A stretch of 21,725 nucleotides of DNA. Origin: a virus. The notes beneath the pieces are model-generated. The model saw only the letters and a list, made by a program, of their open reading frames with translations, was not told where the DNA came from and ran no database searches. Positions 1-10,201 of the stretch are shown here, piece after piece (position 1 is the stretch's first letter; the number at the start of each line of letters is the position of its first letter). The position numbers and the translations under genes were made by a program. The stretch is taken from positions 1-21,725 of the IMG/VR virus record IMGVR_UViG_3300007871_000073. One strand, 5' to 3'.

Positions 1-478
1 GAGCTTTAGGACTCCAGGACTCTACACAGTCACTGCTGCTGTGTATACGAATGAGGAAGTCTCGATTCTTAGTTTCCCGATTGATGTTCGTGGTCCTCCC
101 GTACCAGATGAGCCAGACGAGCCAGACGAGCCAGACGAGCCAGATAATGATGGGTATGATCAAGTATTGATCCAGAGTGTTATCTCTTGGTGCCGTGGCT
201 CTGCCGCAAATAAAGATCAAGTGCTGGGCATAGCCACAGTATTTGGTTATGTGGCCGTTGAAATTGAAGAGGGCAAGCTCACAACTCCGATAGAGGTTAT
301 TGGTCGGACTGCTGTTCTCAATAGGGAAATAGACATGGAAGGTCTTGGTCTTCTAATGAGTAATATCCAAACCGAGCTACAAAAGAGATCTGACTCTGGG
401 TTCCTTGAGACAGTTGACCAGCATTTGATAGTTTGGAGGTCGATTGCAGAAGGGCTAGAGCGGTATGCTAGGAAGTAA
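1..478 (+). CDS. C-terminal part of a protein with Ig/PKD-like strands and a PDE-repeat linker (5' truncated)
   Basis: The frame is open to the first base of the window, so the gene very probably starts upstream. A GTG at 41 is the only start-like codon nearby, but the residues before it (TPGLYTVTAAV) continue the same fold. They look like the last strands of an Ig or PKD-like domain, which commonly ends in a 'GxYTVTxxV' strand. A proline/acidic linker of PDE repeats follows at 104-148. A roughly 100-residue, probably helical domain then begins near DQVLIQSVISWC. I do not recognise that C-terminal domain. The stop overlaps the next gene by 14 bases, which suggests translational coupling with the papain-like peptidase. 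A surface or secreted role is inferred from the Ig-like segment and the linker; no signal peptide can be seen because the N-terminus is missing. Confidence 0.7.
   Translation, partial: SFRTPGLYTVTAAVYTNEEVSILSFPIDVRGPPVPDEPDEPDEPDEPDNDGYDQVLIQSVISWCRGSAANKDQVLGIATVFGYVAVEIEEGKLTTPIEVIGRTAVLNREIDMEGLGLLMSNIQTELQKRSDSGFLETVDQHLIVWRSIAEGLERYARK
104..148 (+). repeat. 9-bp in-frame tandem repeat encoding PDE
   Basis: Five consecutive 9-base units of the form CCAGAYGAG (first unit CCAGATGAG, three exact CCAGACGAG, last unit diverged to CCAGATAAT) encode (Pro-Asp-Glu)4-Pro-Asp-Asn. The repeat lies exactly between the Ig-like strand region and the C-terminal domain, as expected for an extended acidic linker. 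Near-identical units make it prone to slippage, always in multiples of three codons, so the linker length may vary between relatives. Confidence 0.9.
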
Positions 479-1478
479 AAAAATCCTGGCGTTAGTATTC
501 TGTGCCACTATATTTTTCTCGCAGGTTATAGCGGTACTGTTTACACCGGAGCAATCTTACCAAGGTGGTTGGTCTGACCCAAAAATATTTGACAGCGATG
601 TTGAACGGGCCATAGACCCAAACTTAAAATCATCAATTCCAGACAACTGGAAAGGTAAAGGCAGTGGTGGAATACGACTGCTTTATCAGGATTACAAAAA
701 GGTTCATGGCGTAACATACGTGCCACGCAACCAGGGTAGGGTACCATCGTGTGTAGGCCAAGCAGTGGCCGCAGCGGCGGATTTTCTGGCGGCAGTAGAT
801 ATTGTGGCCGGACAGCCAGAAAGAAAACCACCCGCACCTGCTGCTGCCGGGGTCATCTATGGTCTGAGTCGACAAGAGATAGGCGAACTGGGACCGGGTG
901 TTCGTGGCGGGAGTATGAATATCTGGGGAGTGCAAGCTCTCCAGAGGTATGGAGTGGTTGCGAGATTGCGGTATCCTTTGATTGGGATAGACCTTCGCCA
1001 GCCGAGTTCAGCTAGGGCATTAAAATATGGCAAAGAAGGTGTCCCAGAAAGTTTAGAGCAAATTGCTCGGCTGCATCCAGTCAAAGAATACTATTCAATT
1101 AACTCTTATGAAGATCTTCGAGACGCCATTTGTGCTGGGTATCCAGTAGTAATCGGATCTAAACAAGGGTTTGGCAATGGAAAATTGAAACGAGATAAGG
1201 ACGGATTCCTGAATCCTCCGAGGCGTGTTTTCTTCAAGAGTGTTTGGAAGCACTCGATGGTTTGCATTGGCGTGTGTGATAACGGACGCAAAGGCGCGTT
1301 GATTTTGAACAGTTGGGGCTCAGAGTGGGTCAGTGGGCCACATAGGTTTGAAGGTTCACCAGAAGGAACATTCTTTGTCGATTACTTTATTATTGACCAC
1401 ATGGTCAAACAAAAAGACTCTTATGCTATTCGTGGTTTTAGAGGGTACCGCGAATACAGAATTTGGACCAAAAAATGA
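465..1478 (+). CDS. Secreted papain-like (C1 family) cysteine peptidase
   Basis: This 337-residue protein begins with a positively charged, hydrophobic signal peptide or anchor (about residues 5-24). The mature part carries the papain signature: Gln90 and Cys96 in NQGRVPSCVGQA, His263 in KHSMVCIGV, and Asn282 in LNSWGSEW. The Gln-to-Cys spacing of 6 equals papain's Q19-C25, and the NSWG context matches papain's Asn175 region, so the triad and oxyanion residue all appear intact. No classic inhibitory propeptide is obvious, though about 65 residues separate the signal from Gln90. The ATG at 465 overlaps the preceding gene by 14 bases, and the stop overlaps the next start as ATGA. Export out of the cytoplasm and peptide-bond cleavage are inferred from the signal and active site. 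The target is unknown; a cell-envelope, lysis or surface-modifying role is possible. Confidence 0.8.
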   Translation: MLGSKKILALVFCATIFFSQVIAVLFTPEQSYQGGWSDPKIFDSDVERAIDPNLKSSIPDNWKGKGSGGIRLLYQDYKKVHGVTYVPRNQGRVPSCVGQAVAAAADFLAAVDIVAGQPERKPPAPAAAGVIYGLSRQEIGELGPGVRGGSMNIWGVQALQRYGVVARLRYPLIGIDLRQPSSARALKYGKEGVPESLEQIARLHPVKEYYSINSYEDLRDAICAGYPVVIGSKQGFGNGKLKRDKDGFLNPPRRVFFKSVWKHSMVCIGVCDNGRKGALILNSWGSEWVSGPHRFEGSPEGTFFVDYFIIDHMVKQKDSYAIRGFRGYREYRIWTKK

Positions 1479-1873
1479 AACATTTAATGGGGATACTTTG
1501 CTGTGTTACGTTTATTCTTACGTCTGCGGCGTGTCTTATTGGATCGGAACCTGTCTATCAGGCAAAAGATCATCAAGGCGTCACCGTTGATTATAGCTAT
1601 GTTGAACAGGCTGGGTCCACAGTCCAAATCGAAAAAGCGACGACGTTGGAGATAGTATGGGAACGTGGGTGCGCACCTTGTCGCAGGATGAAAGTGGTAG
1701 CAATCAGACTTGTGGCCGAAGGTTACGATGTAACTCTGGTTGAGGATAAAGATGACACTAGAGACTCTCAGGCTTATCCAACTCTTTACTACTTGGACTC
1801 CGAAGGATACGCTATTCGCACGGAAATAGGGTTCAGGCCAGCAGAACACGTCAAAAAGTATTTGGACAAATGA
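1475..1873 (+). CDS. Thioredoxin-fold protein with signal peptide and CAPC motif
   Basis: The preferred start is the ATG at 1475, which forms an ATGA overlap with the upstream stop; a TTG at 1463 is possible but less likely. The 132-residue product has an N-terminal hydrophobic signal (residues 4-18) ending near Ala-Ala-Cys20. That is a weak lipobox, so it could be a lipoprotein, a cleaved secreted protein or an anchored one. The mature domain has VWERGCAPCRRMK with Cys66-x-x-Cys69, the placement and flanks of a thioredoxin active site. It also has a cis-proline candidate in AYPTLYY (Pro102) and a final amphipathic helix. These are hallmarks of thiol-disulfide oxidoreductases acting outside the cytoplasm. 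Its coupling to a cysteine peptidase and to a CxxC membrane protein suggests it may keep those thiols in the right state, but this is inference. Confidence 0.75.
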   Translation: MKHLMGILCCVTFILTSAACLIGSEPVYQAKDHQGVTVDYSYVEQAGSTVQIEKATTLEIVWERGCAPCRRMKVVAIRLVAEGYDVTLVEDKDDTRDSQAYPTLYYLDSEGYAIRTEIGFRPAEHVKKYLDK

Positions 1874-2151
1874 AAGACGTAATACTAGGCGGCCTCGCGG
1901 CTGGGGCATTGACTGTGCTTCTTTGTTCATCCTATGTTGGGCAGCGATTCCAGGATGGAGTCTTGAAGGTCATACCGAAGTCTGTCCACAAGCATACCGA
2001 GTATTTACTAAACTGCACGTTTTGTGCGTCGTGGTGGATCAGCCTCGCAATGCTACAAAAATTTTCAATTATGGAATGGGCGGCAACAGTAGCAGTAGCA
2101 AATATCACAGTGCTATTGATTCATTGGAGCTTATCAACAGAGGAAGAATAG
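1870..2151 (+). CDS. Small membrane protein with CxxC loop (DUF1360-like)
   Basis: A 93-residue protein starting in an ATGA overlap with the thioredoxin-like gene. Hydrophobic segments lie at about residues 4-22, 52-66 and 68-87. Before the second segment is LLNCTFCASWWISLAM, with Cys49-x-x-Cys52 followed by an aromatic pair. This resembles the 'CxxCxxxW' motif of DUF1360 membrane proteins, whose function is not established. The resemblance is by eye and only moderate. Its place in the coupled cassette, after two exported proteins, suggests an inner-membrane component. It could also be a holin-like or spanin-like lysis helper, but nothing specific shows that. Confidence 0.6.
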   Translation: MKDVILGGLAAGALTVLLCSSYVGQRFQDGVLKVIPKSVHKHTEYLLNCTFCASWWISLAMLQKFSIMEWAATVAVANITVLLIHWSLSTEEE

Positions 2152-2460
2152 ATGTTTATCATGACTTGGTTTAGAGAACGTCGAAGAGTTCGGATGTTTG
2201 CTGGCGCAATGAGAGATACTGCTGTTAAGCAATTCAATGAAGGCCAAATGGAGACGGCGTTATACGCCAAGGTTGTCACAGCGACCGAGAACCCAAAAAC
2301 CATGCGAGCCCTCATGCGCCAGACAGAGCTTGAGCCTGGACTTTACGGCGGCATCATGGATTGGGATTGGGAAGCCATCCTTAAATGGGTAGAGGAATAC
2401 TTTATTCCATTGGTTAAATTGTTGCTGCCATTGATATTGCTATTGGATGAGGAAGAATAA
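2152..2460 (+). CDS. Hypothetical protein, basic N-terminus and hydrophobic C-terminus
   Basis: A 102-residue protein whose ATG immediately follows the upstream stop, with AGGAAG five bases before it; a second ATG at 2161 is a less favoured start. The N-terminus is rich in arginine (WFRERRRVRMF), the middle looks helical, and a hydrophobic stretch FIPLVKLLLPLILLL lies just before a terminal DEEE. That tail could be a membrane anchor or an amphipathic membrane-binding helix. I do not recognise the family. It is the last gene before the tRNA cluster and probably closes the left-end operon. Confidence 0.6.
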   Translation: MFIMTWFRERRRVRMFAGAMRDTAVKQFNEGQMETALYAKVVTATENPKTMRALMRQTELEPGLYGGIMDWDWEAILKWVEEYFIPLVKLLLPLILLLDEEE

Positions 2461-2461
2461 T

Positions 2462-2535
2462 CTGGATGTAGCTCAGTTTGGCAGAGCGGGTGGTTTGGGA
2501 CCATCAGGCCGGAGGTTCGAGTCCTCCTATCCAGA
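2462..2535 (+). tRNA. tRNA-Pro(TGG)
   Basis: A full cloverleaf folds by eye. The acceptor CTGGATG pairs with TATCCAG (one G-T). The D-stem is GCTC/GAGC with GG in the loop, and the anticodon stem GGTGG/CCATC encloses TTTGGGA, giving anticodon TGG. The T-arm GGAGG-TTCGAGT-CCTCC is canonical. The discriminator is A and no CCA is encoded, as usual for phage tRNAs processed by the host. It reads CCA, a codon frequent in the phage genes. Confidence 0.92.
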
Positions 2536-2539
2536 CTGA

Positions 2540-2611
2540 TGCGTGGTAGTTCAGCGGTAGAACGCGCGACTGTTAATCGTGATGTCGGAGGTTCGACCCC
2601 TCCCCGCGCAG
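2540..2611 (+). tRNA. tRNA-Asn(GTT)
   Basis: The acceptor TGCGTGG pairs with CCGCGCA. The D-arm GTTC/GAAC has a GG-containing loop. The anticodon stem CGCGA/TCGTG encloses CTGTTAA, giving GTT. The T-arm GGAGG-TTCGACC-CCTCC is canonical. The discriminator is G, typical for Asn, and there is no encoded CCA. It lies four bases after tRNA-Pro and is probably co-transcribed. Confidence 0.92.
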
Positions 2612-2618
2612 CTTAATA

Positions 2619-2687
2619 GTGCGGTTAGTTTAATTAGAACCCTCGGCTGTACCGAGGAAATGCGGGTAAACACTCCCGCACCGCACA
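2619..2687 (+). tRNA. Degenerate tRNA-like cloverleaf (anticodon uncertain)
   Basis: Four stems pair almost perfectly: acceptor GTGCGGT/ACCGCAC, D-stem GTTT/GAAC (one T-G), anticodon stem CCTCG/CGAGG (extendable by one G-C) and T-stem GCGGG/CCCGC. The loops are abnormal. The D-loop is only AATTA and lacks the invariant GG. The T-loop is TAAACACT instead of TTCRANY. The anticodon loop reads GCTGTAC with C in place of U33, or CTGTA if the stem is extended. Nominally the anticodon would be TGT (Thr), which is duplicated by the normal tRNA-Thr at 3240. The flanking pattern also looks like a tRNA-Asn loop CTGTTAA that lost two bases. It could be a decaying tRNA, a mitochondrial-style minimal tRNA, or a tRNA mimic. 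Confidence 0.6.
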
Positions 2688-2693
2688 CATTAT

Positions 2694-2763
2694 CGTGGGT
2701 AGAGTGGGTACTCCGCTGGGCCTCATAAGCCCCGTCGCTCAGGTTCGACTCCTGGACCCACCA
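2694..2763 (+). tRNA. tRNA-Met(CAT) with reduced D-arm
   Basis: The anticodon loop CTCATAA gives CAT, and the T-arm TCAGG-TTCGACT-CCTGG is canonical. The acceptor has six strong pairs (GTGGGT/ACCCAC) with a C-C mismatch at the end, or a 3' CA overhang if the ends are shifted by one. The D-arm is short (GAGT-GGGT-ACTC, or three pairs with loop TGGGTA), and the first pair of the anticodon stem (T/C) is mismatched. CAT could mean elongator Met, initiator Met or, after lysidine modification, Ile2. The C1-C72 mismatch recalls the unpaired 1-72 of initiators, but the stem lacks the three G-C run in initiator form. The exact ends are uncertain by a base. Confidence 0.75.
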
Positions 2764-2767
2764 CTTA

Positions 2768-2838
2768 GGGCCTCTATGTCAAGGGGACGATTGGCACTTG
2801 CAATGCTGATGTGACGAGTTCGATTCTCGTGTGGTCCA
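2768..2838 (+). tRNA. tRNA-Ala(TGC)
   Basis: The anticodon loop CTTGCAA gives TGC on the stem TGGCA/TGCTG (with wobbles). The T-arm is ACGAG-TTCGATT-CTCGT and the D-stem TGTC/GACG. The acceptor GGGCCTC/GTGGTCC has a G-T at the third pair, which is the G3:U70 pair that is the main identity element of alanine tRNA and supports the call. One T-T mismatch lies at the sixth acceptor pair. The discriminator is A and no CCA is encoded. It starts about five bases after tRNA-Met. Confidence 0.85.
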
Positions 2839-2852
2839 CTATTGAGAGTTTA

Positions 2853-2925
2853 GTCCCGTTCGTCTAGCGGTTAGGACATCGGGCTTTCAACCCGGCAACG
2901 GTGGGTTCAACTCCCCCACGGGACA
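2853..2925 (+). tRNA. tRNA-Glu(TTC)
   Basis: The acceptor GTCCCGT/ACGGGAC is perfect and the D-arm is GTCT/GGAC with a GG-containing loop. The anticodon stem TCGGG/CCCGG (outer T-G) encloses CTTTCAA, giving TTC. The T-arm GTGGG-TTCAACT-CCCCC has one T-C mismatch. The discriminator is A and there is no encoded CCA. It directly precedes the small gene at 2949. Confidence 0.9.
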
Positions 2926-2948
2926 CTACTAATATAGGAAACAAAACA

Positions 2949-3233
2949 ATGCCGATACAAGAAGCAGGAACTCCTGCAAACTCATTCAGTTTGGAAGGCG
3001 ACATTGAAATGGCCTTCTTTCCAGGAAGGGATGATGCCTACCATGTTCGGATCAATGGAGATAGATTAGAGGTATTGGTGGCTCGCATGTTAGGGTTCCC
3101 GAGCGAAGCTGAATTTGATGCAGCCTTAGCCGCAGGTCTCAGCCCTGACCCAGATGTACCATCAGTTGTGCGGAAAATGAGCGATGTGAGCCTGTCGGTC
3201 CATCAATTTAACTCTGATGGAGTATGTTGTTAA
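2949..3233 (+). CDS. Hypothetical 94-residue protein between tRNA genes
   Basis: I choose the ATG at 2949 because an AGGA box lies at a suitable distance (TATAGGAAACAAAACA-ATG) and because an upstream GTG start would sit inside the tRNA-Glu gene. The product has a short beta-rich middle (DAYHVRINGDRLEVLVARML) followed by FPSEAEFDAALAAGL and a less ordered tail ending in two cysteines. I do not recognise it. It occupies the place where a small terminase subunit often lies, just before the large terminase, but it shows no helix-turn-helix that I can see, so I do not make that call. Its stop is six bases before tRNA-Thr. Confidence 0.65.
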   Translation: MPIQEAGTPANSFSLEGDIEMAFFPGRDDAYHVRINGDRLEVLVARMLGFPSEAEFDAALAAGLSPDPDVPSVVRKMSDVSLSVHQFNSDGVCC

Positions 3234-3239
3234 GTATTT

Positions 3240-3310
3240 GCCCGCTTGGCAGAGCGGTGATGCACCGGATTTGTAATCCGGCGAGGTGGGTTCAACTCCT
3301 ACAGTGGGCT
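3240..3310 (+). tRNA. tRNA-Thr(TGT)
   Basis: The acceptor GCCCGCT/AGTGGGC has one G-T. The D-stem is GCA/TGC with a nine-base loop. The anticodon stem CCGGA/TCCGG encloses TTTGTAA, giving TGT. The T-arm GTGGG-TTCAACT-CCTAC has one G-T. The discriminator is T and there is no encoded CCA. It is separated from the other tRNAs by the 94-codon gene. It is a clean Thr tRNA, so the TGT-like cloverleaf at 2619 would be redundant. Confidence 0.9.
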
Positions 3311-3386
3311 CTTATGATAAGATATGTGCCGACAACAAAGACCTCTGGTTCTGTTACATTAAGATATACTCCACGAGACCTCTGGC

Positions 3387-5060
3387 ATGATAGACAAGTT
3401 CGCACAACTTATTGCGGACAGGCTTATAAACAATTCTTTAGTGACATGTTCGAGATGGGCGGAACACAAGATTTGGACTCCAGAACCACACTTTGGACCG
3501 CTTAGTTTTGAGAAGTTTCCGTGGCAAAAAGATATTATTGACTGCCAAGAGCCACAAGTTACAGTGCAAAAATGCTCCCAGAGCGGTTTTAGTGTTGCTG
3601 GGCTGATCAAAACACTGTTCATGGTAGACCAAGTAAGGACTGATGTTTTATATGTACTTCCTACAGCCAATCTTGCGGGCGATTTTGCAAAAGCTCGACT
3701 GGACCAAATGGTTGCGATATCGCCAGAACTCGCTAATCTATTTGTGGGCACCAATAATGTTGGACTCAAAACCACCTCGCACAGATCCAATATTTTTATC
3801 AGAGGATCTGTCGCGGAATCAGGACTCGTATCACTACCGGTGGGGACAGCCGTAGTAGACGAGTGGGATAGGTGTAACCAGAACGCCTTGGCGTTAGTGC
3901 ATAAAAGAATGTCCGCTTATGTAAATAAGCATTTATTCGTATTAAGCACGCCTACTTTACCAGAGCATGGCATAAATGTACAGTACCTGCTTGGGACACA
4001 GGAACAATTTGTGTTCCCTTGCATAGGCTGTGGCCGGATCATTCAGTTGATTTGGCCAGACAATATTGAAATCTGTGGCGAGTCGTCAACAGACCCGGAT
4101 TGTCATTTGTCATACCTCAAGTGCGACAAATGTGGAGTCAAACTTCCTCACGAAACCAAAACGGAGTGGCTCTCTAAGGCGTCTTGGGAAGCTATGGCAG
4201 TTGCTCACGGACATCGAAGTTTTCATTTGAATCAGATGTACGCATGGGCCATGACCCCTGGAGAGCTTGTAGTAGATTACTTCAAAGGAGAGTCAAGTGA
4301 AGCAGCAAAAGTCGAGTTCACGAACCAAATACTAGGTAAACCACACCTAATAGATGGTGCCAGAGTCACTGATACGATCATTGACTCGTGTCTAGGGTCT
4401 CACAAAACCGACGACCCAAGACCAGAAGACAGCAGTCGGATGATTGTTATGGGCGTGGACATTGGCATGTACCTAGATATCGCAATAGCCGAGTACCTTT
4501 ACGACCAAGATCCTGGATATGAGCCTTATATCCATAGTACCTGTAAATTGCTGACAACATTGCGGCTACCAGGAAGTGATTTTGATGTTTTAGATAGAGT
4601 CATGGCAGAGTGGCAGGTCCAATACGCCTGCCTTGACTTCCAGCCAGAAACCGTTCTGGCAAAAGCCTTCTGCCGTCGCTTCTATGGCTACTCTGCCGTA
4701 GTACAGTACAGGCGCGGCACAGTTGGCAACGAAATAAAAGAGGTAATGGATGATAACAAAGTTCCCACACTTACAGTGGATCGCACATCGTTTTTAGATA
4801 TGAGTCTGGGTCGGTTGCATAAGCAGAAAATTATACTTCCGTCCAACATTTCGCCAGTCTTTCGAGACCACGTCAAAGCATTGGCAAGAACCTATGAACT
4901 TGACGAGTTTGGGAGGCCGAGGGCCGTTTATGTGACGTTAAACAATAGATCCGATCACTTGGCTCACGCTTTAACTTTGACTGAGGTAGCTCATTTTAGG
5001 TCGTACAGTAAGGCCACAGGGCGGTCAATTAAACCGAGTGAATCAATTCACAACTTTTAG
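3387..5060 (+). CDS. terL: Terminase large subunit, GpA-like
   Basis: This is the DNA-packaging motor and headful or cos nuclease, about 557 residues and in the usual size range. After an N-terminal segment with the GpA-type start (CSRWAEHKIWTPEP), the ATPase has a Walker A-like KCSQSGFS at about 62-69. The Walker B-like AVVDEWDR is at 155-162 and an STPT coupling motif is near 187. A zinc-binding pair Cys212-x2-Cys215 and Cys246-x2-Cys249 follows, a feature of the lambda gpA family. The nuclease half has VMGVDIG (Asp about 358), ACLDFQPE (Asp about 416) and RSDHLAHALTL (Asp about 522) as the acidic metal ligands. The ATG at 3387 is the first start after an in-frame stop; its ribosome binding site is weak. 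No small subunit is identified upstream. Confidence 0.9.
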   Translation: MIDKFAQLIADRLINNSLVTCSRWAEHKIWTPEPHFGPLSFEKFPWQKDIIDCQEPQVTVQKCSQSGFSVAGLIKTLFMVDQVRTDVLYVLPTANLAGDFAKARLDQMVAISPELANLFVGTNNVGLKTTSHRSNIFIRGSVAESGLVSLPVGTAVVDEWDRCNQNALALVHKRMSAYVNKHLFVLSTPTLPEHGINVQYLLGTQEQFVFPCIGCGRIIQLIWPDNIEICGESSTDPDCHLSYLKCDKCGVKLPHETKTEWLSKASWEAMAVAHGHRSFHLNQMYAWAMTPGELVVDYFKGESSEAAKVEFTNQILGKPHLIDGARVTDTIIDSCLGSHKTDDPRPEDSSRMIVMGVDIGMYLDIAIAEYLYDQDPGYEPYIHSTCKLLTTLRLPGSDFDVLDRVMAEWQVQYACLDFQPETVLAKAFCRRFYGYSAVVQYRRGTVGNEIKEVMDDNKVPTLTVDRTSFLDMSLGRLHKQKIILPSNISPVFRDHVKALARTYELDEFGRPRAVYVTLNNRSDHLAHALTLTEVAHFRSYSKATGRSIKPSESIHNF

Positions 5061-5068
5061 GAGATAAA

Positions 5069-5419
5069 ATGGCAAAAAATAAACCCAGTTTCAAAAAAGT
5101 CATTGCCGAGGAAACCAAGAGTATGTTTACGCCAATGAACTCTGCTGAGGTTGAAGACGAAGTTCTTGAGGCTGTGAAAGAGGCAAGAATCTCTCCAGAA
5201 GTTGAGATCGGAGAAATTAAGGTTAAAGTTACTCCAAGACCTGTCAAGGTCAAAGAAAAAGTTCGGCCAAAGCCACATAAACACGACCACGAACTCATTA
5301 GAGGGCTGCGCAAACAAGATCGCAAAGGCTTGAATAAGACTTGTTCAAGGTGCGCGAGGCGTATGCCACTGGCACAAATGGATGGTGGAAAAGCCGACCT
5401 CTGTGACGATTGCCGTTAG
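5069..5419 (+). CDS. Small protein with C-terminal zinc ribbon
   Basis: A 116-residue protein with a good TAGGAGAT ribosome binding site, eight bases after the terminase stop. The N-terminal half is charged and probably helical. A basic proline/valine/lysine stretch follows (about residues 50-75), then a likely zinc ribbon: Cys92-x2-Cys95 and Cys112-x2-Cys115 (TCSRCARRMP ... LCDDCR). The basic segment plus the zinc site suggests nucleic-acid or protein binding. Its position between terminase and portal suggests a role in packaging or portal assembly, but I do not recognise a family and that is inference. Confidence 0.75.
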   Translation: MAKNKPSFKKVIAEETKSMFTPMNSAEVEDEVLEAVKEARISPEVEIGEIKVKVTPRPVKVKEKVRPKPHKHDHELIRGLRKQDRKGLNKTCSRCARRMPLAQMDGGKADLCDDCR

Positions 5420-5427
5420 GAGACAAA

Positions 5428-7155
5428 ATGTCAGAATCGACATTCCATATAACCGATATTCGACATCCTGATTATCTCTTATACTCTGACCAATGGTTTG
5501 AGTGGAGGGACACCTTTCGAGGTGGGGTTGAGTATTTGAATAGATATCTGAAGCCGTTTTCAGAGCGGGAAACGGATGGTGACTTCAATCGCAGAAAAGA
5601 ATGTACTCCAATACCTACATTTGCTAAGGCAGCAGTTCTAGATATTAGGAATAGCATTTTCCAACGACTCGAAGAAGTTTCAAGAATAGGTGGTTCGACT
5701 AAGTATAATTCAGCCGTGGCAGGAGAGGGATCTGGAGTAGACAGAGAAGGAACTTCTATGAACTCCTTCGTCGGTATTGATGTGCTAACAGAATTGTTAG
5801 TGATGGGCAAGGTAGGAGTATATGTCGACGCCCCAGCTAAGGTTCCAACCTCGCTGGCGGAAGAGGCACTCTCTCCTTATCTGTATTATTATCGAGTAGA
5901 AGACATTCTCTCCTTCAAATTGGACGATCAAGCAGAGGACGGGACATTCAAGGCAGTTTTACTAATAGACCATGCCATCAACTATAAAACAGTGTTTGAT
6001 GGTATTGAGCTTCCTGCTGGGCGAGAGACTAGATACAGGCTAGTGTGGAAAGATGAAAACGGAGTTTGGTGCAGATTTTATGATAAACACAAAAAGATCA
6101 TAATGTATCCAGACTCCAATGCAGAAGGGAGTATCCCGCTAGGGATTTCTGTAGTTCCGTTTGTATTAGCAGACATTGGTGGATCGTTGCTGGAAGATGT
6201 ATCAAGCTATCAAAGGGCTTTGCTGAATCTAGTTAGCGGAGACGTAAACTGGGCTCTAAAGTCCAACTCTCCTTTCCTTACAATTCAACAAGAACTCCGC
6301 ACCGTTGGTGCTCACCTAAAGAAAACATCACTATCAGCAGAATCCGGTGCCCAAGTCTCACAGAATCAAGTGGAGTCTCATGGCGCAGGGACCGGACGAT
6401 ACTACGACACAGGCTTAGATCGTCCAGGCTATATAGCCCCGCCGACAGACCCTCTACTCGCTTCTATGAAACTTCAGGAGAAGTTGGAAGACGACATACG
6501 CAAATTGATTAACCTAGCCGTAACCAACAAGGCAGGCTCCAGAACAGAAAGTGCAGAAGCCAAGAAGCTGTCATCACAGGGCCTTGAGGCAGGTCTCTCA
6601 TTTATTGGCACAGTATTACAGCAAGCAGAACAAGCTATTGCACGTTACTGGGCGATGTATGAGAATGTTAAATCTCCAAAGGTAGCCACAGTGGCATACC
6701 CTAAAAGATATATTCTCAAAGAAGATAGCGAGAGATTAGAGGAGGCCAAATCTTTTTTAGACCTGGCCGACCGAATCCCCGGCTATGAGGCAAAAAAAGC
6801 CATCACCTCTATGGTGGCCGGTATTTTATTGTCTGGCAGAATAAATGTTTCTAATATCGAGTCTATTGTGTCAGAGATACAAGCCGCAGGATACACCACT
6901 TCATTACTTGAGGCTGTAATAGCACAGCAGGAGGCTGGTTTAATTAGCGATGAACTGGCCAGCGAGGCTTTAGGGATTGAAGATGGGCAAGTAGAGCAGG
7001 CTAGAAAAGATCATGCAAAGAAACTTGCATTGATTCAGGAAGCACAGACTTCGCCCGAAGATCAGATGACAAATCCAGCGTCTCGCGGAGTCCCGCAGAT
7101 GGGTGAAGGCGAACAGAGCGCATCTGAGGAACAAGCAGGAGACGATGATGAGTAA
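5428..7155 (+). CDS. Portal protein
   Basis: A 575-residue protein starting at ATG 5428, preceded by TTAGGAGACAAA; a TTG 18 bases upstream lies before that site and is rejected. Portal proteins form the dodecameric ring at one capsid vertex through which DNA passes. The call rests on position (after terminase, before scaffold and capsid), on length, and on layout. The N-terminal helical region includes TPIPTFAKAAVLDIRNSIF and the central part is a beta-rich wing (YYYRVEDILSFKLDD). Long helices from about residue 345 include DPLLASMKLQEKLEDDIRKL and ESAEAKKLSSQGLEAGLSFI, the latter a portal-like stem and crown pattern. The C-terminus is acidic and low in complexity. It most resembles DUF4055-type portals by eye. 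No insertion or break is visible. Confidence 0.8.
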   Translation: MSESTFHITDIRHPDYLLYSDQWFEWRDTFRGGVEYLNRYLKPFSERETDGDFNRRKECTPIPTFAKAAVLDIRNSIFQRLEEVSRIGGSTKYNSAVAGEGSGVDREGTSMNSFVGIDVLTELLVMGKVGVYVDAPAKVPTSLAEEALSPYLYYYRVEDILSFKLDDQAEDGTFKAVLLIDHAINYKTVFDGIELPAGRETRYRLVWKDENGVWCRFYDKHKKIIMYPDSNAEGSIPLGISVVPFVLADIGGSLLEDVSSYQRALLNLVSGDVNWALKSNSPFLTIQQELRTVGAHLKKTSLSAESGAQVSQNQVESHGAGTGRYYDTGLDRPGYIAPPTDPLLASMKLQEKLEDDIRKLINLAVTNKAGSRTESAEAKKLSSQGLEAGLSFIGTVLQQAEQAIARYWAMYENVKSPKVATVAYPKRYILKEDSERLEEAKSFLDLADRIPGYEAKKAITSMVAGILLSGRINVSNIESIVSEIQAAGYTTSLLEAVIAQQEAGLISDELASEALGIEDGQVEQARKDHAKKLALIQEAQTSPEDQMTNPASRGVPQMGEGEQSASEEQAGDDDE

Positions 7156-7672
7156 TTACGGAACTGTCAATGGCGGAAATGCTTATTTTGACTCTCGCCT
7201 ACATAGCTACGATTGGGACAATGCCTCAGTGGAAGATAGGCAGAAAGCATTATCGGAAGCTACGGAGCTTATTGAACAATTTAACTACGTTGGTTATAAA
7301 TACACAGTGCAGCAGGCAATAAACGAACTAGACGGCGGGGATTGCACTACAGATGAGGCCCAAGAATCAATTAGACAAGCAAACTTGGCTCAGGAATTGT
7401 CATTTCCAAGAGGAGATGTCACAGATATTCCGGCAGAAATCGACACAGCCTGTTATTTAATTGCCAAAGCTCTCTTATCGGGTAGAGATCCTGACTATGA
7501 CTTGGAATCATTAGCTACCAAATCTACTGCATACGGAGATGTTCGCAATACCTATAATCGAGACGGTAATCACATGGAGCATCTGACTCACTTGATCCCG
7601 TCACCACAAGCATTTAACTTACTTCGACCGTTCCTCCGCGAACACTATCAGTTTGATAGCTATGAAGTTTAG
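7148..7672 (+). CDS. Head-tail adaptor, DnaT-like ssDNA-binding family
   Basis: A start at ATG 7148 is favoured because AGGAG at 7137-7141 sits six bases upstream; ATG 7145 is a close alternative. The gene overlaps the end of portal. The 174-residue product has the layout of phage 'putative DnaT-like ssDNA-binding' proteins, many of which are connector adaptors. The order is YFDSRLHSYDW, a helix with EDRQKALSEATELIEQF, an AQELSFPRGDVTDIP motif (the family's 'Q-x-L-x-(W/F)-P-R ... IP' signature), then the helix EIDTACYLIAKALLSG. By family knowledge this would bind under the portal ring. The tail of the protein (about 60 residues after the core) is not recognised. The name DnaT-like does not imply a replication role. 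Confidence 0.6.
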   Translation: MSNYGTVNGGNAYFDSRLHSYDWDNASVEDRQKALSEATELIEQFNYVGYKYTVQQAINELDGGDCTTDEAQESIRQANLAQELSFPRGDVTDIPAEIDTACYLIAKALLSGRDPDYDLESLATKSTAYGDVRNTYNRDGNHMEHLTHLIPSPQAFNLLRPFLREHYQFDSYEV

Positions 7673-8800: not shown

Positions 8801-10201
8801 ATGAATCCTCTTTATTGCACTCTCGAAGTCACTTGCTTCGCGAATGACAATGACGCTTTGATCCCCGAACTGTGGGCACGCGAAGCGTTGCGCGTACTGA
8901 TGTCGAATATGGTCATGGGTAACCTCGTGAACCGTGATTTCTCTCCTATGGTAGCCAATTTTGGCGACGTTGTCAATACTAGCCGCCCCGCTAACTTCAG
9001 TGGCACACGTAAGACGGATGCCGACAGTGTGGTGGCGCAAGACGCCGTCAGTCCAAATATCCCAGTGCCATTGGATCAGCACCTCTATGTCACATTCGTC
9101 ATTAAGGACGGTGAGATGTCGAAGGCTCTGCCTAACTTGGTTGAGCGATATCTTGAGCCAGCGGCTCGCGAACTGGCCGAGAAAGTCGACCAGATCCTTT
9201 GTGGTCAGGTCGCGCGTCTGTCGACGTATGAAGTCGGTGCCCTTGGCGAAATGGACAAAACCAACGCTGATGATGTGGTCCTGGATGCCAACACTCAGTT
9301 GGATATTAACCGTGCCCCGAAGGCCGGTCGTAACTTGGTTCTTGGCCCACGGGCTCAGAAAGCTACCCTCGGTGCGGACCTGTTCGTGTCGACCGAAAAG
9401 CGTGGCGATGCCGGTACCGCTCTGCGGACAGCAAGCCTCGGCTCGGTTTATGGGCTGGACAGCTTTATGGACCAGAACGTCAGTTGGGTTGACGTTGGCA
9501 GCGCTCAAGTGAGCACCGGCGTGACTGATAATGCGGAAGCCGTTGGCGACACTGTGATTGAAACCACAGTCGCTGACTCCGCTGATATCGTCGCCGGTTG
9601 CTATGTCGTGTTCGGCGGCGAAGGCAAGCCTTATCGGGTTGCCTCCAAGGCCAATGATCCTGTTGACTTGACGCTGACCGAAGGTCTGGCAGGCCCTGTT
9701 GGCGCTGCGGCTGCTGTTACCGTTTATCGCGTAGGCGAAGTCAATGGAACCAAGGCTGCTGATTATGCCAAGGAAATTTCCCTGGATGGTCATGATGCCA
9801 ACAAAGGTCCGCAGTTGGGACAGTGGGTCACTTTTGGTACCGGCGCGTCCTCGCACTCTTACTCGGTAATCGCGGTCACAGAGACCACGACAACTGAAAG
9901 TGCGGTTCTTCTGGATCGTCCCCTCGATGCCACAATCACAGATGGCGATTCCGTATTCTACGGTCCCGCTGGTGGCATGAATCTTGCGTTCACGCGAGAT
10001 GCGGTTGCGATGGTGAATCGTCCTCTCGTGACGGTTCCTAGCGACACTGGCGCTCGTAGCTTCGTGGCATCCTTTGAGGATCTGGCCATGCGTGTTACGA
10101 TGCAGTATGATAGCGAAATCATGGGTATGCGGGTCACGTTCGACTTGCTCTGTGGTGTTGCCATTCTTGACGACCGTATGGCCGTCGCCGTCTACAGCTA
10201 A
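8801..10201 (+). CDS. Major capsid protein, P22 gp5-like (HK97 fold)
   Basis: This 466-residue protein makes the icosahedral shell. The family start is seen at residues 19-65: ALIPELWAREALRVLMSN, then GNLVNRDF and GDVVNTSRPA, as in P22-coat-type proteins. The end is also typical, with AFTRDAVAMVNRPL (397-409) and the final MGMRVTFDLLCGVAILDD. Between them, about residues 248-310 and 326-388 look like two copies of a small beta domain ('G-x-Y/W-V-x-F-G ... Y-x-V ... L-x-x-x-L'), where one insertion domain is usual. The first 18 residues, with LEVTC, are an extension beyond the family's usual start and match the scaffold N-terminus. All 22 arginine codons are CGN, with no AGA or AGG, unlike the neighbours, which points to very strong expression. 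It has its own leader and a following hairpin. Confidence 0.88.
   Translation: MNPLYCTLEVTCFANDNDALIPELWAREALRVLMSNMVMGNLVNRDFSPMVANFGDVVNTSRPANFSGTRKTDADSVVAQDAVSPNIPVPLDQHLYVTFVIKDGEMSKALPNLVERYLEPAARELAEKVDQILCGQVARLSTYEVGALGEMDKTNADDVVLDANTQLDINRAPKAGRNLVLGPRAQKATLGADLFVSTEKRGDAGTALRTASLGSVYGLDSFMDQNVSWVDVGSAQVSTGVTDNAEAVGDTVIETTVADSADIVAGCYVVFGGEGKPYRVASKANDPVDLTLTEGLAGPVGAAAAVTVYRVGEVNGTKAADYAKEISLDGHDANKGPQLGQWVTFGTGASSHSYSVIAVTETTTTESAVLLDRPLDATITDGDSVFYGPAGGMNLAFTRDAVAMVNRPLVTVPSDTGARSFVASFEDLAMRVTMQYDSEIMGMRVTFDLLCGVAILDDRMAVAVYS

Follow-up and report, generated by a model that had tools for sequence, protein, structure and literature searches.

An exported papain-like peptidase with thioredoxin-fold and membrane protein partners in a conserved cassette upstream of the terminase of tailed phages

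Why would a tailed phage carry an exported cysteine peptidase, coupled to a thioredoxin-fold protein and a CxxC membrane protein, ahead of its terminase? The question is raised by the left 2460 bases of the virus record IMGVR_UViG_3300007871_000073 of IMG/VR, which we analysed over its whole length of 21,725 nucleotides (21.7 kb, called the window here). We conclude that the phage module is real and, judging by our searches of the open literature, which gave nothing on such a cassette, previously undescribed. Its most probable task would be the attack on the host envelope, most likely for lysis, and we give this reading of the module an even chance. From the data described below we infer the lysis, the host and the redox step.

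Layout and conservation of the cassette

Five coupled genes, all on the plus strand, fill this region. The first (2-478) is open at the left edge and encodes the 3' part of an Ig/PKD-like exported protein whose linker reads PDEPDEPDEPD and whose C-terminal domain is helical. It overlaps by 14 nucleotides with the gene for a papain-like cysteine peptidase of 337 amino acids (465-1478). An ATGA overlap leads to an exported thioredoxin-fold protein with a CAPC motif (1475-1873; preferred start ATG 1475, alternative start TTG 1463), and a second ATGA overlap to a DUF1360-like membrane protein with two transmembrane (TM) segments and the motif CTFCASWW (1870-2151). This gene is directly abutted by that of a small protein with a hydrophobic, Trp-rich tail at its C-terminus (DWDW..WVEEYFIPLVKLLLPLILLL; 2152-2460). 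The genes and couplings given in an earlier note on this DNA were reproduced to the coordinate. The export signals, the CxxC membrane protein, the Ig-like part and the hydrophobic tail described there were also each seen in the window proteins, with N-terminal hydrophobic segments in the peptidase (residues 7-25) and the thioredoxin-fold protein (4-22), two segments in the DUF1360 protein and a C-terminal one in the last protein. Scans for promoters and terminators gave a signal close to shuffle level.

Since the window is the entire virus record, it could not be extended directly. A near-identical contig, L004, reaches 1.7 kb further left and continues the unit with more members, as expected from the earlier suggestion that the unit is cut off on the left and should be extended. 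The Ig-like protein is complete there (L004:1411-2160, 249 amino acids) and starts with a hydrophobic segment. Upstream of it a 64-residue, holin-like protein with two TM segments and a 167-residue protein are encoded. A two-TM protein of 61-64 residues is found upstream in L004, L008, L014, L101 and others.

Profile searches in IMG/VR yielded 141 terminase relatives and 87 peptidase relatives. Hidden Markov models (HMMs) of each component were then run on six-frame open reading frames (ORFs) and redundancy was removed. The order holin-like protein, Ig protein, peptidase, thioredoxin-fold protein, DUF1360 protein (where present), tail protein and terminase large subunit (TerL) was observed with no violation in 43 non-redundant contigs that have both peptidase and terminase; many of the missing members fall at contig ends. 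The order holds even where peptidase identity falls to about 30%. In L008 all six genes recur in unchanged order, with protein identities of 31-61%; in L014 the order persists while identities are lower and an ORF of 67 amino acids is added, and L009 and L010 keep it without DUF1360. The peptidase distances followed the TerL distances closely (Mantel r = 0.89, n = 41), and the correlation with TerL was 0.81 for the Ig protein, 0.80 for DUF1360, 0.72 for the tail protein and 0.56 for the thioredoxin-fold protein. Since one order recurs in 43 contigs and the peptidase tracks TerL, the grouping is more than chance. The genes are not scattered in the relatives, as the earlier note had considered they might be, and its proposal of a coupled phage cassette of exported peptidase, thiol and membrane proteins is strongly supported by the conserved order.

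Upstream sequence of 5.5 kb or more was available for 33 non-redundant TerL relatives. The peptidase was present upstream of TerL in 23 of them; the remaining 10 kept a thioredoxin-like gene and had no peptidase. Other phages have a lone member of the peptidase family, with a signal anchor and with neither TerL nor the thioredoxin-fold gene nearby.

The peptidase, its export and its inteins

In the window peptidase the residues Q90, C96, H263 and N282 stand in the order of a papain-like Gln-Cys-His-Asn site, and the four are invariant in every member that covers the sites (90-94 of 95). The AlphaFold2 model (predicted local distance difference test score, pLDDT, 89.4) has a papain fold. Foldseek placed xylellain first among the PDB structures (3ois, E 1e-12), with xylellain and cathepsins ranging from E 1e-12 to 1e-8, and 3ois was also the best match in a PDB sequence-profile search (E 3e-4). 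The intact papain-like peptidase that had been read from the sequence is thus borne out by its active site and its predicted fold. The viral models neighbouring it in Foldseek are phage C1 peptidases and proteins named N-acetylmuramidase or peptidoglycan-binding-like, which are names only. The module peptidase therefore shares site and fold with family C1. It differs from this family in that the window protein has no match to Pfam C1 (PF00112; one relative reached 17.8 bits against a gathering cut-off of 20.7), no I29-type prodomain was recognised, and, exported via Tat or Sec, it is part of a phage module. Searches of cultured phages gave no homologue of the peptidase.

A signal or anchor helix is predicted at residues 4-26 of the window peptidase, with a cleavage site that looks plausible by eye. 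A Tat-type signal (RRxFLK) is present on the peptidase in 29 of the 43 non-redundant contigs; the N-terminus in L009 and L010, MDRRDFLKVAGIG, is a twin-arginine motif, and the NCBIfam Tat model scored the one relative tested just below its cut-off. The intact peptidases without RRxFLK are those of the window, L008, L014/L018, L016, L019, L020, L021 and L109. They make up the window's own clade, with a TerL identity of about 49% or more, so that, judged from the sequences, the Tat-type signal is lost in this clade. Like signal-arrest-release (SAR) endolysins such as Lyz of phage P1, the peptidase is a hydrolase with an N-terminal export segment of its own and, possibly, a control by cysteine or disulphide: the window and L008 peptidases share a cysteine at residue 13 of this segment, which was seen only in close relatives. 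Unlike the SAR endolysins, the peptidase has a different fold and most of its relatives a Tat-type signal.

Four peptidase genes are interrupted by intein-like inserts at the active site (L068:2792-5983, L120:7845-9920, L111:7197-8714 and L035:425-1906). In L068, L111 and L035 an insert ends with HN exactly before the catalytic cysteine. In L068 and L120 it lies inside the NSWGS motif, between G and S; L068 thus carries two. Inteins are retained where they interrupt sites that important proteins cannot do without, and their placement therefore supports an active site that would be indispensable. As Tat exports folded proteins, a Tat signal would be compatible with prior splicing in the cytoplasm. 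We find it hardly credible that the peptidase is a dispensable accessory enzyme that scavenges nutrients or helps to take over the host. Such a role would fit a peptidase that has no known substrate, a point that also weighs against the lysis reading; the invariant active site, the inteins located there and the deep co-inheritance with TerL argue for an important gene.

Thiol and membrane partners

The thioredoxin-fold protein of the window matches phrog_22 (E 1e-4), its family profile also matches PDB thioredoxins, and one relative matches PF00085 (E 2e-15). Both cysteines of its CxxC motif are kept in 93 of 93 proteins. The DUF1360 protein reached 21.3 bits for PF07098 at a cut-off of 21, and one relative 25.1 bits; the cysteine pair is kept in 22 of 22 relatives. 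The cultured-phage search gave no homologue of the window DUF1360 protein, and for one relative its single significant match was an unannotated 462-kb uncultured phage. For the Ig protein, the AlphaFold2 model (pLDDT 86.6) was matched by Foldseek to PKD/Ig domains (E 2e-4), and no homologue was found among cultured phages. The small tail protein has 53 relatives, in which the C-terminal tail is conserved. Neither the first (Ig) nor the last (tail) window protein had a family match in the Pfam and PHROG searches.

Do the thiol proteins act on the peptidase? Three observations weaken a redox control. The thioredoxin-fold protein lacks a signal peptide in about 11 relatives, so the description as periplasm-type holds for the window protein and not for these. 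A thioredoxin-like gene adjoins TerL even in relatives without the peptidase, and the DUF1360 gene is absent from many cassettes. Redox control is therefore the weakest link of the proposal. The same observations on the thioredoxin-fold protein, together with its looser correlation with TerL (0.56, against 0.89 for the peptidase), would fit a cassette made of two functional units, in which the thiol part is a separate aid for the oxidative folding of exported phage proteins. We rate this as rather unlikely, since the genes show translational-type overlaps in the window and the thioredoxin position after the peptidase is constant.

In some cassettes of the Tat type, an extra protein of 105-116 amino acids with an N-terminal membrane segment is encoded between the peptidase and the signal-less thioredoxin-fold protein (L009:4619-4966, L178:7423-7740). 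It could anchor the thioredoxin system.

A possible role in lysis and the question of the host

The search for canonical lysins covered 17 cassette-bearing contigs of 22-125 kb, about 0.95 Mb, and control genomes gave matches. No Amidase_2, Phage_lysozyme, SLT, M15_4, M23, Amidase_3 or NlpC/P60 was found in the 17 contigs; this negative covers the seven families, with GH25, GH108, CHAP and Amidase_5 not searched family by family and the GH19 control silent. For a relative of 67 kb whose called genes were scanned with Pfam, the best 25 families, down to E 2e-6, include no lysin. A PHROG match of G010 with the label 'endolysin; inhibits RNA polymerase' was rejected. The protein (L167:18469-19224) is a dATP/dGTP diphosphohydrolase domain, matched by PHROG 2252 and 5033, and the 'endolysin' label looks wrong there.

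Lysis is the role that best accounts for the position ahead of the terminase and the adjacent holin-like gene, for the lack of the canonical lysins that were tested, and for a conservation across a deep clade that is unlike the sporadic occurrence of morons. Among the roles suggested earlier it is the one that gained support; for superinfection exclusion and receptor modification no direct evidence was found. Late in infection, the peptidase would be exported, via Tat in most relatives and with a Sec-type signal in the window's clade. It might then cut the proteins that hold the host envelope together, in place of a peptidoglycan-cutting endolysin. The Ig/PKD protein may bind the envelope or the peptidase, and the thioredoxin-fold and CxxC proteins may keep the catalytic cysteine reduced or open disulphides of the substrate. 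The small membrane proteins (holin-like, DUF1360 and tail protein) could set the timing or permeabilise the inner membrane. Like holin-endolysin cassettes, it groups a small two-TM protein, a hydrolase presumably directed at the envelope and further, accessory exported proteins into a single block ahead of the terminase. It is unlike them in that its enzyme is a predicted protein peptidase with its own export signal, and no recognised peptidoglycan hydrolase, and that a thiol protein is included.

Several points weigh against a lysis module. The two-TM protein matched no holin family and had no homologue in the cultured-phage search, and no spanins were identified. As no contig is known to be a complete genome, a distant endolysin could be missed. 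The peptidase-less TerL relatives also lack the tested lysins, and we have dropped the absence of lysins as a feature unique to the cassette phages.

The exported peptidase could instead remodel the envelope, trimming host surface or receptor proteins against superinfection or re-adsorption of progeny, with the thioredoxin-fold and DUF1360 proteins keeping it active. The export signals on several products are consistent with this, as is the occurrence of the peptidase alone, with a signal anchor, away from TerL and thioredoxin genes in other phages. Superinfection-exclusion genes are usually sporadic, whereas this module has followed TerL through a deep clade, and no alternative lysin was found among the families tested. 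We therefore consider remodelling unlikely.

To the right, the module is followed by six tRNA genes (Pro, Asn, Met, Ala, Glu and Thr; 2462-3311, plus strand), which lie outside it, and by TerL (3387-5060, plus strand; phrog_675 E 2e-68, PF05876 E 2e-27), the marker of the phage clade. A tailed-phage head module continues with portal (5410-7155), head-tail adaptor (7103-7672) and major head protein (8801-10201). With head genes this close, and Ig-type domains being common in virion proteins, peptidase and Ig protein might be associated with the virion, or injected, to open the envelope during entry, their signals serving periplasmic storage. This appears very unlikely to us: virion proteins rarely have Tat/Sec signals or TM tails, and the module lies upstream of TerL, not among the tail genes, and shows no link to tail proteins.

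The region ahead of the terminase varies among relatives. The tRNA array at the cassette/terminase junction comprises 14 genes in L017 (L017:59-2719) and none in L008, L014 and L016. L017, a close TerL relative, has a secreted serine protease gene, trypsin-like by eye, directly upstream of the terminase (L017:2732-3415) and no cassette on the contig, although the left contig edge may have removed it. In three peptidase-less TerL relatives a lipoprotein and another protein lie near the same place (L063:4485-5168, L206:4148-4816, L049:2237-2845); by eye they are of the C39-like and NlpC/P60-like cysteine-peptidase type, with no Pfam match for the two tested. A gene that is sulfotransferase-like by eye is found between cassette and terminase in L008 (4389-4895) and L007 (1309-1815).

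Which host would have such an envelope? The sole plasmid match was pPLIM01 (NC_014149.1) of Planctopirus limnophila DSM 3776, a complete, circular phage-plasmid of 37 kb with terminase, portal, capsid, tape measure and integrase genes. Its first gene (21-1133) encodes a fusion in which a two-TM holin-like segment is joined to a lipoprotein-like protein with Ig and helical parts, and the second (1184-2218) encodes a peptidase homologue (HMM E 4e-38, 26.5% identity); hhalign gave 98.8% for the fusion and 99.7% for the peptidase. A small exported cysteine-containing protein, an HNH gene and TerL follow. As in the cassette, holin-like and Ig parts precede a homologous peptidase upstream of the terminase. 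Unlike the cassette, no thioredoxin, DUF1360 or tail-protein homologue was found, the peptidase has a signal anchor and not a Tat signal, and TerL is not recognised by the family HMM. The small protein (L222:2215-2622) has DCLECGHG and a C-terminal RCTRNGC, and its gene shares an ATGA overlap with the peptidase gene; possibly it is the thiol partner that replaces thioredoxin. No lysin was found among the annotated or Pfam-listed proteins of pPLIM01.

The envelope of the Planctomyces group was reported as peptidoglycan-free, SDS-resistant and made of cysteine-rich, disulphide-stabilised protein (PMC3035269). As a target, such a disulphide-linked planctomycete-type envelope would match a protease accompanied by thiol partners. 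Our tentative proposal, which may well prove wrong, is that protease and thiol partners replace the endolysin and dismantle an envelope of protein and disulphides, probably in Planctomycetota and perhaps in other hosts, and that in some members intein splicing gates the catalytic cysteine before Tat export. Three points speak against the planctomycete part. More recent studies have detected some peptidoglycan in planctomycetes. The link of the window phage to this group is one remote homologue. The sole match in genome contigs was a small contig of an Anaerolinea metagenome-assembled genome. A Chloroflexota host, suggested by L165, was unsupported, with the true family in 1 of 301 Chloroflexota genomes, on a 10.8-kb contig.

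To our knowledge, nearly all phage lysis studied so far is peptidoglycan cutting or a block of peptidoglycan synthesis. A widespread module that pairs an exported protease with thiol proteins and occupies the lysis position, in phages where a search for the usual lysins gave none, points to another means of opening cells. The inteins that interrupt the protease at its catalytic cysteine amount to a natural experiment on how a potentially toxic enzyme of this kind is controlled. Since pPLIM01 brings a homologue into a cultured strain, the module is directly testable, and it provides a handle on phages whose hosts, planctomycetes among them, have been little studied.

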